DNA of 64,000 bases from Actinotalea sp. Marseille-Q4924 (GTDB lineage Bacteria > Actinomycetota > Actinomycetes > Actinomycetales > Cellulomonadaceae). A program made the translations under genes and the position numbers. Each line of letters starts with the position of its first letter. Positions within the stretch are counted from its first letter, which is position 1. The stretch spans positions 310,001 to 374,000 of the forward strand of contig NZ_CAKAKB010000006.1 of the NCBI RefSeq assembly GCF_916618755.1, in the 5' to 3' direction. Of the stretch, positions 46,025-59,734 are shown in pieces. The notes under the pieces are model-generated. The model searched no databases. It saw nothing but the letters and a program-made list of their open reading frames with translations, and had not been told where the DNA came from.

Positions 46025-46263
46025 TTCCCCGCTCTGTCATCCGCGGCGGGGCCGCGACCTGAGAGTTTTGCCGGTCCGCCATGGCCGGTCTGCGTGTCGC
46101 AGGGGCCCGGGGCGCGCCGACTTGCACCGTCGGTGGGGCGACGTCATCGGACGCCTGCCCGCTTTCCAGAGTTGCCTCACCGTGGCGGTACGTGGGCCTG
46201 AGAGATTCCCGGGGAGGTTGCTCCTTCGGCGCCCGGCTGCCTGGGTGGGCAGCGAGCTCTCCC
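46025..46263 (-). promoter_or_regulatory. Tandem glycine riboswitch upstream of gcvP
   Basis: On the complement strand the leader has two glycine aptamers. The first (about 46165-46263) reads CGGGAGAGC, GCCGAAGGAGCAA, AATCTCTCAGGC and ends GCAACTCTGGAAAGC. The second (about 46025-46150) has CGACGGTGCAAGTC, AAACTCTCAGGTCGC and GACAGAGCGGGGAA. These are the conserved cores of the gcvT-type riboswitch. Downstream, the 16-bp perfect palindrome CCCGGCGCGCGCCGGG (45996-46011) lies between aptamer 2 and the ribosome site and may be part of the expression platform. Confidence 0.95.
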
Positions 46264-46333
46264 GTCACGGTTCGAGCAGCGATTCAGTTGTGGTGGCTCG
46301 GAGGGCAAGCGTACTCGCCGTCCCGAGCGGCCC

Positions 46334-52092: not shown

Positions 52093-52127
52093 CGGGGTGG
52101 GGCGGGCGGGGGGCGCCGGCGGGCAGG

Positions 52128-52336
52128 AGAAAACCCGTGGGCTCCTGGTCTGGGACCAGGGTGTCGCGATGGACGAGTCACGACCCCCACGGGCTCCGGC
52201 GACTGCCTGGGTCTCGCTCGCCGCTCGAGGCGGGTCGGGACCGGAAGCACTCCGTCCGATGTTCTCGGGCGACTAGCGGACAGTCACCTCACGCGTCCTG
52301 GATGTATGCACCGTCGGACCACCTCCTTTCCCGTGT
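52128..52336 (-). ncRNA. Candidate structured RNA transcript ending in a three-way-junction terminator
   Basis: On the complement strand, transcription from the promoter at 52343-52371 should start near 52336. The transcript carries a very strong Shine-Dalgarno sequence, a 12-residue ORF, then a 60-nt fold: outer stem CCCGTGGG/CCCACGGG (52186-52193 with 52134-52141), inner hairpin GTCGTG/CGCGAC, and a 7-bp hairpin CCTGGTC-CCA-GACCAGG (52144-52160). The outer stem is followed directly by TTTT (52130-52133). No known RNA family is recognised. It could be a small mRNA with structured terminator, a leader, or a regulatory RNA. Confidence 0.55.
52273..52311 (-). CDS. 12-residue ORF with near-perfect Shine-Dalgarno
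   Basis: GTG 52311 begins a peptide MHTSRTREVTVR ending at TAG. Upstream AAAGGAGGTGGTCC (complement of 52316-52329) matches all but one base of the sequence complementary to the 16S rRNA 3' end, far stronger than any other ribosome site in the window. No amino-acid run typical of attenuator peptides is present, so its role is unknown. Confidence 0.45.
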   Translation of the reverse strand: MHTSRTREVTVR

Positions 52337-52477: not shown

Positions 52478-54406
52478 ATGCCTCGTCCCACCCGGACCGC
52501 CCTCGTCGCCGTGGTCGCGCTCGCCCTTGCTGGTTGCTCCGTCGTCGCGCCCGACGGCGAGCGCGAGTCGCTGCCGACCGCCACGCCGACCCCGACGCCC
52601 GAGCCGCCGACCGTCCACCAGGGCGAGGTGAGCGTGCCGCCGGACGCGACGACCGTCCTCGACGCCGCCGACCCGGTCGCCGCCGCCCTGCGCACCAGCG
52701 AGACGCTCTTCGCCTCCGCGCCGGTCGCCGTCGTCGCTCCGGCCGACGACGTCGCGGCGCAGCTCCGGGCGGCGTCCGCGGCCGTCGCGCTCGGCGCGCC
52801 CCTCCTGCTGGACGCTGCCGACGACGGCGCCGCGGCCGAGGCCGGCGAGGGCACCGAGGACGGGTCCGGGGACGCCGCCTCGCCCGCGCCGACCCCCTCG
52901 CCGGACGCGTCCGACGAGAGCGCCCCGCCCACGGACGCCACCGCGGCCGAGCTGGACCGCCTGGAGGTCCTGGCCGTCCTCACCGTCGGTGAGGTGACGG
53001 TCGACGCCACGGAGGACGTCGTCGTCGTGGCCGCCCCGCAGGACGACGCCGCCCTCGCCGAGCTGCTCGGGACGGAGCTCGGCGCGGCGACGCCCGTCGC
53101 AGCCGGGGGCGAGGCGACGTCGGTCGCGGGACTGGACCGCGCGGCGCCCGCGCTGCTGGCGCTCGAGGGCGCGGCGCCCCCGGCGCCCGGCGCCGAGGAC
53201 GAGACCACCGGGTCGGGCACCGAGGCTCCCGGGGCGACACCCGGCGCGACGCCTGGGACCTCGCCCGCGCCCTCCCCCTCGAGCGAGGAGGACGAGGCGC
53301 CCGAGGACGAGGGCAGCGAGGAGTCCACCGACGACGCCCCGGCGGAGGCATGGCCCCTCACCGAGCTGCCCGAGGCGCCGGAGGCGGCGACGCTGCTGGT
53401 CACGGGCGGGACGCAGGACCTCGCCCCCACGGCGACGGCCCGTGCGGCGGGGCTCGCCGTCGTCGCCGTGCCCAGCGGCGACCCTCGTGCGACGAGCGCG
53501 ACGGTGCAGGCCGTCGCGGCCGCCGCGCCGCAGACCGTGGTGGCCCTCGGACCGGCCTTCGGGACGCCCGAGGAGCTGGCGTGGAAGGTCCGGACCGCGG
53601 CGACCGGGGTCGAGCTGCCCGGCGGCGGCCAGGTGCTGTTCCCGGGTCGGCGCATGGTGGCGCTGTACGGCACGCCGGGGACGTCCGCGCTCGGCATGCT
53701 CGGCGAGCAGGACCTGCCGGGCAGCATCGCTCGTGCCCAGCAGCTCGCCGCGCAGTACCAGGCCCTCACGCCGGACGTCGTCGTCCCCGCCTTCGAGATC
53801 ATCGCGACGGTCGCGGCGGCCGAGGCGACACCCGACGGCAACTACTCGCGCGAGCTGCCCGTGGAGTCGTTCGTGCCGTGGGTCGAGGCGGCACGGGACG
53901 CCGGCGTCTACGTCGTCATCGACCTGCAGCCGGGGCGCACGGACTTCCTCACCCAGGCGAAGATGTACGAGCCGCTGCTGCGGTACCCGAACGTCGGGCT
54001 CGCGCTCGACCCGGAGTGGCGCCTCGCGCCGGACCAGGTGCACCTGCGCCAGATCGGTTCCGTCGGGATCGACGAGGTCAACACCGTCGCGGACTGGCTC
54101 GCCCAGCTCACCCGGGACAACGCGCTGCCCCAGAAGCTGCTGGTCCTGCACCAGTTCCGGCTGTCGATGGTGCAGGAGCGGGAGCGGCTCGACATGTCGC
54201 ACGAGGAGCTCGCCCTCATGGTCCACGTGGACGGGCAGGGCTCCCAGCCGGCGAAGCAGGACACGTGGAGCGCCCTGCGGAGGACGGCGCCCGAGGGGCT
54301 GTGGTGGGGCTGGAAGAACTTCGTCGACGAGGACCTGCCGATGCTGACGCCGGAGCAGACGTACGGCGGGGTGCAGCCGGTGCCGGACTTCGTCAGCTAC
54401 CAGTAG
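52478..54406 (+). CDS. Large exported lipoprotein with CWB2-like region and conserved C-terminal domain
   Basis: The 642-residue protein has a lipoprotein signal ending in the lipobox LALAGC (Cys about residue 21). Residues ~60-110 and ~165-190 resemble cell-wall-binding-repeat-2 halves (LRAASAAVALGAPLLL; LEVLAVLTVGEVTV). Two long Asp/Glu/Pro/Ser/Thr-rich linkers follow. The last ~260 residues form a well-conserved-looking globular domain (ESFVPWVEAARDAGVYVVID; PNVGLALDPEWRL; LLVLHQFRLSMV; MVHVDGQGSQPAKQ), possibly a TIM-barrel hydrolase. Function is unknown, at the cell surface. Confidence 0.7.
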   Translation: MPRPTRTALVAVVALALAGCSVVAPDGERESLPTATPTPTPEPPTVHQGEVSVPPDATTVLDAADPVAAALRTSETLFASAPVAVVAPADDVAAQLRAASAAVALGAPLLLDAADDGAAAEAGEGTEDGSGDAASPAPTPSPDASDESAPPTDATAAELDRLEVLAVLTVGEVTVDATEDVVVVAAPQDDAALAELLGTELGAATPVAAGGEATSVAGLDRAAPALLALEGAAPPAPGAEDETTGSGTEAPGATPGATPGTSPAPSPSSEEDEAPEDEGSEESTDDAPAEAWPLTELPEAPEAATLLVTGGTQDLAPTATARAAGLAVVAVPSGDPRATSATVQAVAAAAPQTVVALGPAFGTPEELAWKVRTAATGVELPGGGQVLFPGRRMVALYGTPGTSALGMLGEQDLPGSIARAQQLAAQYQALTPDVVVPAFEIIATVAAAEATPDGNYSRELPVESFVPWVEAARDAGVYVVIDLQPGRTDFLTQAKMYEPLLRYPNVGLALDPEWRLAPDQVHLRQIGSVGIDEVNTVADWLAQLTRDNALPQKLLVLHQFRLSMVQERERLDMSHEELALMVHVDGQGSQPAKQDTWSALRRTAPEGLWWGWKNFVDEDLPMLTPEQTYGGVQPVPDFVSYQ

Positions 54407-54466
54407 CGCGGAGGTGCCTGCCCGGGACGGGCGGCACGCACGGACCGACGCGCACCCGGACAGCAC

Positions 54467-54500
54467 AGAGCCCGGCGCACCCCTCGGGGCGCCGGGCTCT
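54467..54500. terminator. Bidirectional intrinsic terminator
   Basis: A perfect 12-bp stem AGAGCCCGGCGC/GCGCCGGGCTCT plus inner CCCC/GGGG pairs lies between the lipoprotein gene and the convergent 50-residue riboswitch-controlled ORF. No T tract is present. Confidence 0.85.
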
Positions 54501-54515
54501 CGTGTGCTGAGGGTG

Positions 54516-54668
54516 TCAGGCGGTCCTGACCTGGTTGGGCAGGAAGCCGAGGAGCGCCCGCTCCCCGGCGATGGCGGCCCACCGGGCCACGAGCTGCGGC
54601 GGCACTGCCGCGGTGACGTCCTCGCGAGCGGTGGAGGCACCGGCGTTGGCGACGGCGAAATCACCCAT
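54516..54668 (-). CDS. 50-residue protein controlled by a c-di-GMP riboswitch
   Basis: The protein reads MGDFAVANAGASTAREDVTA, then AVPPQLVARWAAIAGERALL and GFLPNQVRTA. It is soluble and helical-looking, with no recognised family. ATG 54668 is 10 nt after the last pairing strand of the GEMM-I riboswitch, and the AGCAGG ribosome site sits between, immediately next to the P1 stem. A strong terminator follows the stop. The arrangement makes this a genuine gene despite its size. Regulation by c-di-GMP implies a link to motility, biofilm or surface behaviour. Confidence 0.7.
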   Translation of the reverse strand: MGDFAVANAGASTAREDVTAAVPPQLVARWAAIAGERALLGFLPNQVRTA

Positions 54669-54678
54669 GATGACCTGC

Positions 54679-54766
54679 TTCCGTTCGGCAGCCCGGCTGA
54701 CCCTGGTGGTCCCGTGGCTTTGCGTCCCCGCCTTTCGACGGGTTTGCCTTGTCGCTGACAACGGAA
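54679..54766 (-). promoter_or_regulatory. Cyclic di-GMP-I (GEMM-I) riboswitch
   Basis: On the complement strand an 88-nt aptamer is closed by TTCCGTT/AACGGAA. It contains AAGGCAAACC, a hairpin with GAAA tetraloop (CCCGTCGAAAGGCGGG), GGGACGCAAAGCC and the end AGCCGGGCTGCCGA. These match the conserved core of class I c-di-GMP riboswitches closely, including both ligand-contact strands and the tetraloop. The closing strand abuts the ribosome site of the 50-residue ORF, so control at translation is plausible; no separate terminator is seen between aptamer and ORF. Confidence 0.93.
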
Positions 54767-54834
54767 CTCTCCACCCGTGACTTGAGTGTTGTCAGCAGGT
54801 CAAAGATCGACATCACCCTTTCGGACCATGGTTT

Positions 54835-56367
54835 TCACCCGCTGGTCGGCGCGTCGCCGAGCACCTTGCGCTCCAGCGGACGGTTCGCCGGGCCCTGGAG
54901 CACCTCGCCGTCGATGCCGAACCGCGAGCCGTGGCAGGGGCACTCCCACGCCCGCTCGGCGTCGTTGAACCCGACGAGGCAGCCCAGGTGGGTGCATCGG
55001 GCGGACACGGCGTGCAGGTCGCCGGCGTCGTCGCGGTAGACGGCGCAGCGCTCACCCTCGACGCGGAGGACCGCACCCGACCCCGGCTGCAGCTCCTCCG
55101 GCGAGGCGACGTCGGACCGCTTGAGCCGGTCCCCGATGAAGTGCTTGGCGACGTTCACCTGCAGCTTCGCCATCGCCGGAGCGTCCCGCGGGTGCAGGCG
55201 TCGCGGGTCGTACAGGTCGGCCCAGAGCAGCGGGTCGCCGCCGATCTGGGACGCCAGCAGGCGCCCGCTCATGACCCCGGTGCTCATCCCCCAGCCGCCG
55301 AACCCGGTCGCCACGTGGACGTGGTCGGACCCCGGGTGGAAGGGCCCGACGAACGGCACCTTGTCCGTCGACGTGATGTCCTGCGTCGCCCAGCGGTGCA
55401 CGATCTCGGCGCGGGGGAAGCGCTCGGTCGTCCACGCGGCGAGCCGTTCCCACCGGTCCTCGACGCCGGACTCGCTGGGGTTGAAGTGCTCGCCGGTGAC
55501 GATGAGGAGGCGTCGTCCGTCGTCGTACGGGGCGGTGCGCACGGAGCGGGTGTTCTGCTCCTCGGTGATGTAGATGCCGCGCGGGTCGTCCGCCTCCGGG
55601 ATCGTCGCGGCGACGACGAGCTCGCGGCGGGGCGTGAGCCGGGCGAAGAGCATCGCGCGGTCGTACACCGGGTAGTGCGTCGCGACGACGACGTGCTCGG
55701 CGGTGACCGTCGCGCCGTCCTCGGTGGTGACGCGGCAGGGCTCACCCTCGTCGAGCCCGACGGCGCGCGTGCGCTCGAAGATGCGCCCGCCCCGCCGGAC
55801 GACGTCCTCCGCGAGCCCCAGGAGGTACTTGCGCGGGTGGAACTGCGCCTGGTCCTCGACGCGGACGGCACCGGCGACGTCGTAGGGCAGGTCGGTCGTC
55901 GTGACGTACGAGGCCGGGAGACCGGCGTAGCGGGCCGCCTCGACCTCGTCGGCGAGCTGCTCGAGCTCGTCCGCGGACTCCAGGTACGTGTATGCGGGCA
56001 CACGCTCCAGCTCGCAGTCGATGCCGAGCTCCGCGGCAACGTCCCACACGTGCTGCACGGCGTCGAGCTGGGAGCGTCCGTAGTCGCGCGCCGCCTGCTC
56101 GCCGGCCGAGCGGCGGATGTGGTCGTAGATGAGCGTGTGCTGCGCGGACAGCTTCGCCGTCGTGTGGCCGGTGACGCTCTCGACGATCCGGTCCGCCTCG
56201 GGGACGGCGACGCTCCGGCCGGCCCGCGTCAGCTCCCACGCGGTGCAGATGCCGGCGATGCCACCCCCCACGACGACGACGTCCACCGTGAGGTCCCCGG
56301 GCAGGGACGGGTACGGCGTCCCCGGCGCCGAGCGGATCCAGTACGACTGAGCACGTCCTGGCAGCAT
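54835..56367 (-). CDS. FAD-dependent oxidoreductase with C-terminal Rieske domain
   Basis: The 510-residue protein has an N-terminal DAO-type FAD domain: VDVVVVGGGIAGICTAWELT as dinucleotide motif, HTTAKLSAQHTLIYDHI and VATGFGGWGMSTGVMSG. It ends with a Rieske [2Fe-2S] domain whose ligands are visible as CTHLGC and CPCHGSRFG (Cys-His and Cys-His). This is the architecture of bacterial glycine/D-amino-acid-oxidase-Rieske fusion proteins of unknown substrate. ATG 56367 has AGGAGG 6 nt upstream; an ATG at 56397 lacks one. Probably soluble. Confidence 0.9.
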   Translation of the reverse strand: MLPGRAQSYWIRSAPGTPYPSLPGDLTVDVVVVGGGIAGICTAWELTRAGRSVAVPEADRIVESVTGHTTAKLSAQHTLIYDHIRRSAGEQAARDYGRSQLDAVQHVWDVAAELGIDCELERVPAYTYLESADELEQLADEVEAARYAGLPASYVTTTDLPYDVAGAVRVEDQAQFHPRKYLLGLAEDVVRRGGRIFERTRAVGLDEGEPCRVTTEDGATVTAEHVVVATHYPVYDRAMLFARLTPRRELVVAATIPEADDPRGIYITEEQNTRSVRTAPYDDGRRLLIVTGEHFNPSESGVEDRWERLAAWTTERFPRAEIVHRWATQDITSTDKVPFVGPFHPGSDHVHVATGFGGWGMSTGVMSGRLLASQIGGDPLLWADLYDPRRLHPRDAPAMAKLQVNVAKHFIGDRLKRSDVASPEELQPGSGAVLRVEGERCAVYRDDAGDLHAVSARCTHLGCLVGFNDAERAWECPCHGSRFGIDGEVLQGPANRPLERKVLGDAPTSG

Positions 56368-58017: not shown

Positions 58018-58908
58018 TCAGACCGCGACGTGCTGCCGCGCCGCGGGCGCGACGAGCGCGTCGTGCTGCGGCGAGCGCTGCGTCGGCACGTGCGCGACCG
58101 TCGTGACCGTGGTCGACGACACCGCGCGCGCGGCCACCTGCGCGAAGTACGCCCGACGACGACGCTCCGCGACGCCGGCGGGACGGTCCGCGACGGGCAC
58201 GAGCTCAGGGTCGAGGCTGGCGTTGATGCCGTCCTTGAGGAGTCCGAGCGCCTCGGTGCGGAGCTGGCTGATGCGCGACTGCGTCACGCCCAGCTCGTCC
58301 GCCAGGTCCGAGACGGGCCGGTCGTGGAAGAAGAGCTGCTCGACGACGTAACGGAGCCGCTCGGGCAGGGCGGCCACACCGGCACCGAGGAACTGCAGGC
58401 GCTCGTTCACGAGGAGGCTCTCCTCCGGACCCATGGTCGTCGTCGCGACGGTGTCGGCGATGGAGCCGTCGAACCCCTCGATCGAGAGGACCCGCGTCTC
58501 CGCGGCACCGCGCGCCACGTCGACCTCCTCGACGGCGACTCCCATGGCCTCGGCGAGCTCGTTCCGCGACGGCGTCCGCCCCAGGGTGCCGGTGAGCTCG
58601 TCCGTGAGGGTGGTGATACGCCGCGCCCGCTGCCGAGCGCCGCGGGAGACCCAGTCCATCGAGCGCAGCTCGTCCACCAGCGCGCCCCGGATGCGCAGCG
58701 CCGCGTACCGGGCGAAGGGGACCCCGGTCGACTCGTCGAAGGAGCGGGCGGCGCGGACGAGAGCGAGGTGGCCGGCCGAGACGAGGTCGCTCCGCGAGAC
58801 GTAGCTCGGCACGCGGGCGAGCATCGCGTTCACGTGGTAGCCGACGAGCGCGAGGTTCTCGGTCACGAGAACGTTCGTCGGGTGCTGGGTCGCTGCCGTG
58901 GGAGCCAT
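58018..58908 (-). CDS. fliA: FliA/WhiG-type RNA polymerase sigma factor (sigma-28 family)
   Basis: The 296-residue protein has region 2 (YVSRSDLVSAGHLALVRAAR; FARYAALRIRGALVDELRSM, with DWVSRGARQRAR as the region 2-3 boundary of sigma-28 factors), region 3 (TLTDELTGTLGRTPSRNELA) and region 4 HTH (VSDLADELGVTQSRISQLRT). A variable ~70-residue Arg/Val/Pro-rich tail follows that most FliA proteins lack. It should direct motility or sporulation-like promoters. A CTCA-N17-CCCGAA element lies just upstream. No anti-sigma FlgM is recognised nearby. Confidence 0.88.
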   Translation of the reverse strand: MAPTAATQHPTNVLVTENLALVGYHVNAMLARVPSYVSRSDLVSAGHLALVRAARSFDESTGVPFARYAALRIRGALVDELRSMDWVSRGARQRARRITTLTDELTGTLGRTPSRNELAEAMGVAVEEVDVARGAAETRVLSIEGFDGSIADTVATTTMGPEESLLVNERLQFLGAGVAALPERLRYVVEQLFFHDRPVSDLADELGVTQSRISQLRTEALGLLKDGINASLDPELVPVADRPAGVAERRRRAYFAQVAARAVSSTTVTTVAHVPTQRSPQHDALVAPAARQHVAV

Positions 58909-59095: not shown

Positions 59096-59245
59096 AATCG
59101 CCGCTGTACCCCGTTCGGACCACGTGGTGGACAGGCACGACGCCCCAGGCACAGCTGCGAACCCATCACATGCCGCTGCGCGCGTCCGATGAGTCCTCGT
59201 GACCGGGAAGGTCGAGGGCCCGGTCCAGGACGAGGGGGATCGTCG

Positions 59246-59734
59246 ATGGCGTTGAACGAGCTGTCCGCCGCGCTGTGGCGCGAGCGCCGGCTCCTCGAGC
59301 TGCTGCTGTTCAAGCTCGACGAGCAACGCCTCGTCCTCGTCGACGGGCGCACGCAGTGGCTCGAGTACACGACCGACGAGATCGAGAGCGTCCTCGAGAA
59401 GGTGCGGGGCGCGGAGCTCGGCGTAGCCGTCGAGGTGCAGGACGCTGCTCTGGCGCTCGACCTGGATCCGGACTGCAGCCTGGCCGACCTCGCGGAGGCG
59501 GCACCCGCACCGTGGGACGACCTCCTCCACGACCACCGGCGCGCCGTCGTCGGGCTGGTCGAGGAGATCCGAGCCCTGCGCGAGACCAACAGTGGGCTGC
59601 TCACGACGTCGCACCGCTCCGTCCAGGAGGCGCTCACGGCCCTGGAGGACGCGGTGGGCACGGACGACGCGACCGACGACGCGACGGACGGCCCCGCCGA
59701 CGGCAGCGCTCACGTGCTCGACCGGACCCGGTGA
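59246..59734 (+). CDS. flgN: FlgN-family flagellar chaperone
   Basis: The 162-residue helical protein begins LNELSAALWRERRLLELLLF, continuing KLDEQRLVLVDGRTQWL, and LHDHRRAVVGLVEEIRALRE with NSGLLTTSHRSVQEAL. This is the actinobacterial FlgN pattern, a chaperone that escorts the hook-junction proteins FlgK and FlgL to the export gate. ATG 59246 has GAGGGGG upstream; an earlier ATG at 59189 adds an Arg/Gly-rich tail. flgK and flgL normally follow, but here only a short ORF does. The tail is Thr/Asp-rich. Confidence 0.82.
   Translation: MALNELSAALWRERRLLELLLFKLDEQRLVLVDGRTQWLEYTTDEIESVLEKVRGAELGVAVEVQDAALALDLDPDCSLADLAEAAPAPWDDLLHDHRRAVVGLVEEIRALRETNSGLLTTSHRSVQEALTALEDAVGTDDATDDATDGPADGSAHVLDRTR

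Follow-up and report, generated by a model that had tools for sequence, protein, structure and literature searches.

The complementary strand of the window (the whole stretch of DNA that was analysed, 64,000 nt in length) carries a c-di-GMP-I (GEMM-I) riboswitch aptamer directly in front of an ORF of 50 codons. Judged by comparison with related genomes, the riboswitch and the small protein form a real, conserved unit. The model that we favour, and which we consider probable as a whole, is one in which the riboswitch translationally controls this one conserved small-protein gene, the product docks on a partner, and the unit belongs to an arm of signalling shared with bldC. The small protein is probably a new part of the c-di-GMP signalling network; it would add to that network, in Actinotalea and a sister genus, a protein family that is absent from Pfam and NCBIfam as searched. 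The features discussed below are the following.

54683–54758, minus strand: c-di-GMP-I (GEMM-I) riboswitch aptamer, identified by covariance matches to RF01051 and RF03167 and by its contact residues
54669–54682, minus strand: linker of 14 nt with a Shine-Dalgarno-like stretch (GGAAGCAGG), the probable translational expression platform, too short for a terminator
54516–54668, minus strand: ORF of 50 codons plus TGA, member of a conserved small-protein family, present in 19/19 genus genomes, with signs of purifying selection and no Pfam or NCBIfam family
54757–54786, minus strand: CTCAAG-N-CCGTTGTC, a weak element and possible degenerate clade promoter, with the same spacing in L001, L003 and L005
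54814–54840, minus strand: GGGTGAA-N-CGAAAGGGTG, a GGGTG repeat 22 bp apart, probable transcription-factor site
54455–54515, minus strand: hairpin between convergent genes (−45.2 kcal/mol, z −5.55), possible bidirectional terminator without a T tract
52478–54406, plus strand: convergent gene of 642 aa with a lipoprotein-like start (by eye) and no clear family; the same neighbour is found in three relatives
58018–58908, minus strand: FliA/WhiG-family sigma factor gene (E 1e-44 to TIGR02479), remnant of a flagellar cluster
59189–59734, plus strand: FlgN flagellar chaperone gene (Pfam FlgN, 61 bits), remnant of a flagellar cluster

Identity of the aptamer and its ligand

The aptamer is a full-length covariance match to RF01051, with a score of 70.8 bits against a gathering threshold of 35 (54684–54758, minus strand). 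It also matches RF03167 (c-di-GMP-I-GGC), with 65.3 bits against a gathering threshold of 59 and E = 3.7e-13 over the 64 kb window (54683–54756, minus strand). Both scores lie above gathering, and the assignment to GEMM-I, made at first by a sequence-only reading of this DNA, is confirmed. RF03167 is the reported winner of the Rfam clan competition at this site, but the bit score is higher for RF01051.

The canonical c-di-GMP-I contact residues are, we assume, those numbered G20, A47 and C92. The window aptamer has a G before the sequence CAAACC and an A at the first position of J2/3, in agreement with the canonical residues at the G and A positions; their placement was aided by an account of the related cGAMP riboswitch, which gives that junction as a single A between P2 and P3 (PMC6274999). 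Scored by script, the G/A combination is present in 80 of the 87 aptamers of the genus (six are not scorable and one has G/C) and in 18 of the 19 orthologs that precede the small ORF. The remaining ortholog (L031) is not scorable and has an A by eye. A C precedes the CG of P1 in 18 of the 19 orthologs, with T in one (L085).

The name GGC presumably marks a type of possibly altered ligand, and we take the GGC and UAU types to be variants whose ligand is unsettled. As RF03167 is the clan winner, the RNA might be a genuine GGC variant, with some other ligand than c-di-GMP. We regard this as unlikely. The GGC consensus has a G at the first J2/3 position (RF03167 alignment), and this substitution of G for A is seen neither in the window nor in the 18 scorable orthologs (of 19) nor in any of 60 sister-genus loci, where A was scored by script in 60/60. 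The A at this position, the higher score with RF01051 and the presence of 10 GGDEF stretches in the genome make c-di-GMP the likely ligand of the window aptamer, and the RNA is likely to be the c-di-GMP receptor at the small-ORF locus. For the protein, the part of a c-di-GMP effector that the sequence-only reading suggested is a putative one.

The window contains other RNAs on the minus strand: a glycine riboswitch aptamer (46176–46274, 61.1 bits) and the actinobacterial sRNA Ms_IGR-5 (52124–52336, 70.1 bits).

Conservation of the small ORF behind the riboswitch

A search of the genus with RF03167 gave 87 sites in 19 of 19 genomes, and all 87 aptamer loci were read. The genus is taken here as Actinotalea in the wide sense; its loci include A. 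ferrariae, A. subterranea, A. solisilvae and Actinotalea sp. K2, and also Cellulomonas carbonis and Cellulomonas sp. APG4. The window's own genome is G000, and its small-ORF locus is L001. Each of the 19 genomes has one member of the small-protein family directly behind a GEMM-I aptamer. The 3′ end of the aptamer is separated from the ATG by 14 nt in the window and by 11–16 nt in all 19 orthologs, an ATG being found in each by a script that scanned only 10–17 nt behind the aptamer.

A profile of the 19 proteins was run against the 221 genomes of the family, which is the scope of the protein-profile search. All 19 were recovered at E ≤ 7.6e-15, followed by a long weak tail (108 genomes in total at E ≤ 0.1) composed mostly of short stretches in longer frames. 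Among the next-best 11 loci of the tail, the only ones fetched, eight have GEMM-I directly in front, all from one sister genus, and three do not (L116, L118 and L119). A profile including six sister-genus members gave 56 matches in 49 of 81 sister-genus genomes. Fifty of these were read, and the aptamer is present in front of 47 and absent from three; the six unread matches all lie in frames of 289 aa or more. The aptamer-less matches from both searches (three and three) occupy reading frames of at least 109 aa. Both profiles were built from proteins originally found behind GEMM-I, but the searches themselves used protein only. The unrecognised small ORF noted by the sequence-only reading directly behind GEMM-I therefore keeps that place in 19/19 genus genomes and in 47/50 sister-genus matches read.

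A DNA pattern (aptamer core, CCGAAC and ATGGAC) was found in 57 of the 81 sister-genus genomes, and the reversed-pattern control gave 0. Together with six more genomes from the protein-profile loci, the unit is present in at least 63 of the 81; the protein was read in 55 of these (family-like by eye), and eight were counted from the pattern alone. The remaining 18 were not shown to carry the unit by the profile or the pattern search. Among 248 genomes drawn evenly from the order, RF01051 matches 26 at E ≤ 0.001. Outside the family 18 of the 21 loci fetched were readable, and none of their ORFs resembles the small protein by eye. On these searches, Actinotalea and the sister genus appear to be the range of the small-protein family known so far.

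The protein is 38–58 residues long across the copies read (47–58 aa among the 19 genus orthologs). Its N-terminal half varies, and a single short segment is conserved, around W-A-x-x-A with VP-x-Q or LP-x-Q after it. Within the genus this short core reads VPPQ.LARWAA.A ... LP.Q. An in-frame ATG is also present 9 nt further upstream in L010 and L028. An amphipathic helix in the core was ruled out as a supported reading, its hydrophobic moment being no better than that of shuffled sequences. The 50-aa protein of the window has no match in Pfam and 0 NCBIfam families at E ≤ 1. Sixteen members of the small-protein family gave 0 Pfam families, and only 1/16 had a match in NCBIfam, which is sub-threshold (12.9 against 40 bits). 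A sequence search of the PDB returned no relative (best match E 0.14). The small-protein family is undescribed in the libraries searched (Pfam, NCBIfam and PDB sequences), while the RNA class is already known.

The pattern of codon changes indicates purifying selection on the small ORF. In the ORF's own frame, the only one for which pN/pS was computed, pN is smaller than pS in 9/9 usable Actinotalea pairs (of 171, the rest being outside 60–99.9% identity), with a ratio of 0.49, and in 201/203 usable pairs of the sister genus (43 distinct sequences give 903 pairs), where the ratio is 0.39. Differences at codon positions 1/2/3 number 86/60/132 in Actinotalea and 1580/1384/3409 in the sister genus, so that position 3 dominates.

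The transcript could instead be a riboswitch-controlled small RNA in which the ORF is incidental. The transcription unit is short with a strong 3′ hairpin, and chance ORFs are abundant in high-GC genomes; frames +1 and +2 are indeed open in most sequences, with stops in 4 and 7 of 19 (Actinotalea) and in 23 and 7 of 43 (sister genus). Yet the pN/pS of 0.39–0.49 in the ORF frame, the changes mostly at codon position 3 and the preservation of a peptide motif across two genera all argue for a protein, and we consider a small RNA very unlikely.

Flagellar setting, flanking elements and mode of control

In the window 3–5 kb separate the unit from fliA and flgN, and the intervening genes are FAD/Rieske and PhzF-like. 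The sigma factor scores 152.9 bits with TIGR02479, below the model cut-off of 189.6. The flgN orthologs adjoin the fliA ortholog in three relatives. In G012, G006 and G002 one end of the flagellar/chemotaxis cluster carries the unit, and the fliA and flgN orthologs and flagellin are ∼33–43 kb from this unit, with the FlhA of G012 located in between. The segment 54835–59734 has the appearance of a scar, in which FAD/Rieske and PhzF-like genes occupy the place where three relatives have ∼33–43 kb including flagellar/chemotaxis genes. Flagellin_N is found in 17 of the 19 genomes searched, and not in G000 or G013. Of the seven genomes tested for FlhA, three lack it (G000, G013 and G004) and four have it; G004 nevertheless retains one Flagellin_N match (E 1.3e-27). 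The motility sigma factor first noted as a neighbour is FliA/WhiG-like. The connection of the unit with motility is indirect: the unit is at the cluster edge in three flagellated relatives, but neither flagellin nor FlhA was found in this genome. On the simplest reading, most of the flagellar cluster would have been deleted in this clade. Massive flagellar loss is described in Actinobacteria (PMC10746217).

Upstream of the aptamer, GGGTGAA and a second GGGTG are present in all 19 orthologs (the second copy is GGGTA in L028). The spacing of the repeat is 22 bp in 16 of the 19, 23 bp in L012 and 31 bp in L010 and L028, the last being about one helical turn more than 22 bp. The element matches the 64 kb window once, where 0.01 matches would be expected. 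Its strict pattern occurs 17 times in 15/19 genomes, and 14 of these are at the small-ORF locus, i.e. in 14/19 genomes. A role as a flagellar-regulon site was rejected, since extra copies in the window genome and G004 precede a PP2C-like phosphatase ORF (by eye; L225 near 1823 and L226 near 1433). G012 too has a copy at another place. The CTCAAG element overlaps the 5′ half of a 7-bp stem at the base of the aptamer, and its spacer is one base longer than that of the flagellin-gene promoters (by eye). A FliA promoter as a regulon feature was rejected because of this spacer and because the strict pattern gave 6 matches in the genome against 1 for the reversed control. No sigma-70-type promoter was recognised in a scan of 54400–54900. 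In 15 of the 19 upstream regions compared a TANNNT box lies directly before GTCAGCG, which would place the start of the RNA near the aptamer; it is absent from L001 (the window genome), L003, L004 and L005.

The absence of that box at four loci, the failure to find flagellin and FlhA in the window genome and the position of the unit at the edge of the flagellar cluster in three relatives would all suit a decaying leftover of the lost cluster, functionless in this species. Against this, the aptamer and ORF are intact in three FlhA-less genomes (L001, L003 and L005), pN/pS is 0.23–0.34 in three pairs among them, and the GGGTG element is kept in all three, making decay very improbable. As the unit stayed in FlhA-less genomes with this low pN/pS, the small protein is unlikely to be a purely flagellar component, if it is one at all.

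Control at the initiation of translation is most likely, because the gap between aptamer and ATG is too short for a terminator. The 7-bp closing stem of the sequence-only reading (TTCCGTT / AACGGAA) is present in the window sequence, but is not conserved. The pairing of the flanks of each locus was compared with that of flanks swapped between loci, using 5000 permutations. For the 19 Actinotalea orthologs the outer P1 gave −6.1 against a permuted mean of −6.7 kcal/mol, with 4498/5000 permutations at least as good. The values were −8.9 against −8.5 kcal/mol for 22 distinct sister-genus loci (439/5000 at least as good) and −7.68 against −7.66 kcal/mol for 76 distinct genus aptamers (2334/5000), the genus-wide test having dropped 10 of the 87 aptamers for a different P1 core. 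With flank pairing no better than permuted, the 7-bp stem was rejected as a conserved part. No anti-Shine-Dalgarno pairing was seen to be conserved, and the MFE structure of the window leader does not exceed shuffled sequences in stability (z −0.87). By eye, the upstream GACCTGCT is perfectly complementary over 8 nt to AGCAGGTC, close to the start codon. This complement was set aside; neither L003 nor L005 keeps it exactly (by eye), and it may be untranscribed.

The direction of the switch accordingly has geometry and precedent as its basis, given that there is no conserved anti-Shine-Dalgarno pairing and an outer P1 no better than permuted. The precedent is Vc2, which switches translation OFF and depends on P1 as the key element (PMC9262584), and OFF is most likely the better guess here. 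Binding of c-di-GMP would fold the aptamer and the P1 helix, whose 3′ strand ends a few bases from the Shine-Dalgarno stretch, and the folded aptamer would most likely lower translation as in Vc2. The riboswitch would in this way govern a single small-protein gene at the level of translation. The protein, predicted to be cytosolic, probably exerts its effect by docking onto a larger partner.

At the 3′ end of the unit the strong terminator originally proposed is in part sustained. The hairpin there is very stable (z −5.55), but it lies between convergent genes and a scan of 54400–54900 returned 0 terminator-like sites with a T tract. There is no operon downstream of the small ORF, because the neighbouring gene is convergent in the window and in three relatives. 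Micro-ORFs do occur behind other GEMM-I copies of the genus, and the small ORF might likewise serve a downstream gene as leader peptide or attenuator; with a convergent next gene in the window and in each of the three relatives examined, we hold this to be extremely unlikely.

The wider GEMM-I regulon and comparison with known systems

The sequence-only reading had envisaged a one-gene regulon, and this did not hold. GEMM-I is found twice in the window genome at E ≤ 0.001, before the small ORF and before bldC, and in 19/19 Actinotalea genomes it precedes an ORF with the BldC core, at one or two loci each. The second aptamer of the window genome (L002, G000:C2:419220–419296) lies directly before bldC, the ORF scoring 104.1 bits with NF033787 against a cut-off of 77. 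The count across the genus is an exact-string test of the core, and NF033787 was run on the copy of the window genome only. BldC is a regulator known for its part in development in Streptomyces. Its position behind GEMM-I in all 19 genomes would tie c-di-GMP to a developmental regulator by RNA, and this linkage is possibly more important than the small-protein unit. In the literature collection searched, no paper joins riboswitch, c-di-GMP and bldC, and none joins c-di-GMP riboswitch, Actinobacteria and Cellulomonas. The small protein and bldC, both located behind GEMM-I, would form a riboswitch arm of c-di-GMP signalling.

Other GEMM-I loci were seen along the way. By eye, the aptamer also precedes bldC-like ORFs at the sister-genus loci L154, L160 and L177 and at L156 of another genus, and EAL-domain-like ORFs at L035, L037 and L084, where c-di-GMP feedback is possible. 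Micro-ORFs of 26–43 codons lie behind GEMM-I at L009, L015, L017, L018, L021, L024, L036, L044, L048, L050, L054, L057 and L060; at L015, L018 and L024 the micro-ORF is followed by another ORF whose start resembles a secretion signal (by eye), and these micro-ORFs may be leader peptides. At L047, L070 and L083 the aptamer is followed by decaying BldC-like ORFs, with an LPTQVR or VPTQVR tail that resembles that of the small protein.

The small protein might descend, in radically shortened form, from a duplicate of the riboswitch-bldC pair, having shed the DNA-binding wing to become a modulator of BldC, though we think this quite improbable. A claim of homology with BldC was rejected on hhalign probabilities of 6 and 12% (P 0.0058 and 0.0024). 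The comparison score of 18.1 was reached by 1/100 column shuffles (a single outlier of 130.8), and the reversed profile gave 6.3. If such a descent were true, one second messenger would set both a developmental regulator and its mini-protein partner via two riboswitches of the same type, and the circuit of BldC and mini-protein would have outlived the flagella that it first perhaps served.

Of the known systems, the Vc2 type of riboswitch (RF01051) is matched over its full length; the contact positions checked carry the canonical G and A, and the aptamer adjoins the ribosome site. It differs in that the linker here is 11–16 nt without a recognisable separate expression platform, and in that the gene behind the aptamer encodes a small protein found in none of the family libraries searched. 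RF03167 is likewise matched above its gathering score (65.3 against 59 bits) and was chosen as clan winner, but the window aptamer lacks the G at the first J2/3 position and scores higher with RF01051.

The bldC unit has the same kind of leader and aptamer as the small ORF, in the same genomes, and by eye P..V.RWA and a VP.Q tail are shared by the two proteins, but the small protein has no match to NF033787. The RsiG-(c-di-GMP)-WhiG system (PMC8325347) is a c-di-GMP circuit of Actinobacteria that involves a FliA/WhiG-type sigma factor along with small partner proteins. The likeness to the present locus lies in a c-di-GMP circuit, a sigma factor of this type and a small protein. The RsiG motif E(X)3S(X)2R(X)3Q(X)3D is not apparent by eye in the 50-aa protein. 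At the small-ORF locus, unlike the RsiG-WhiG system, it is the RNA that is the likely sensor of c-di-GMP.
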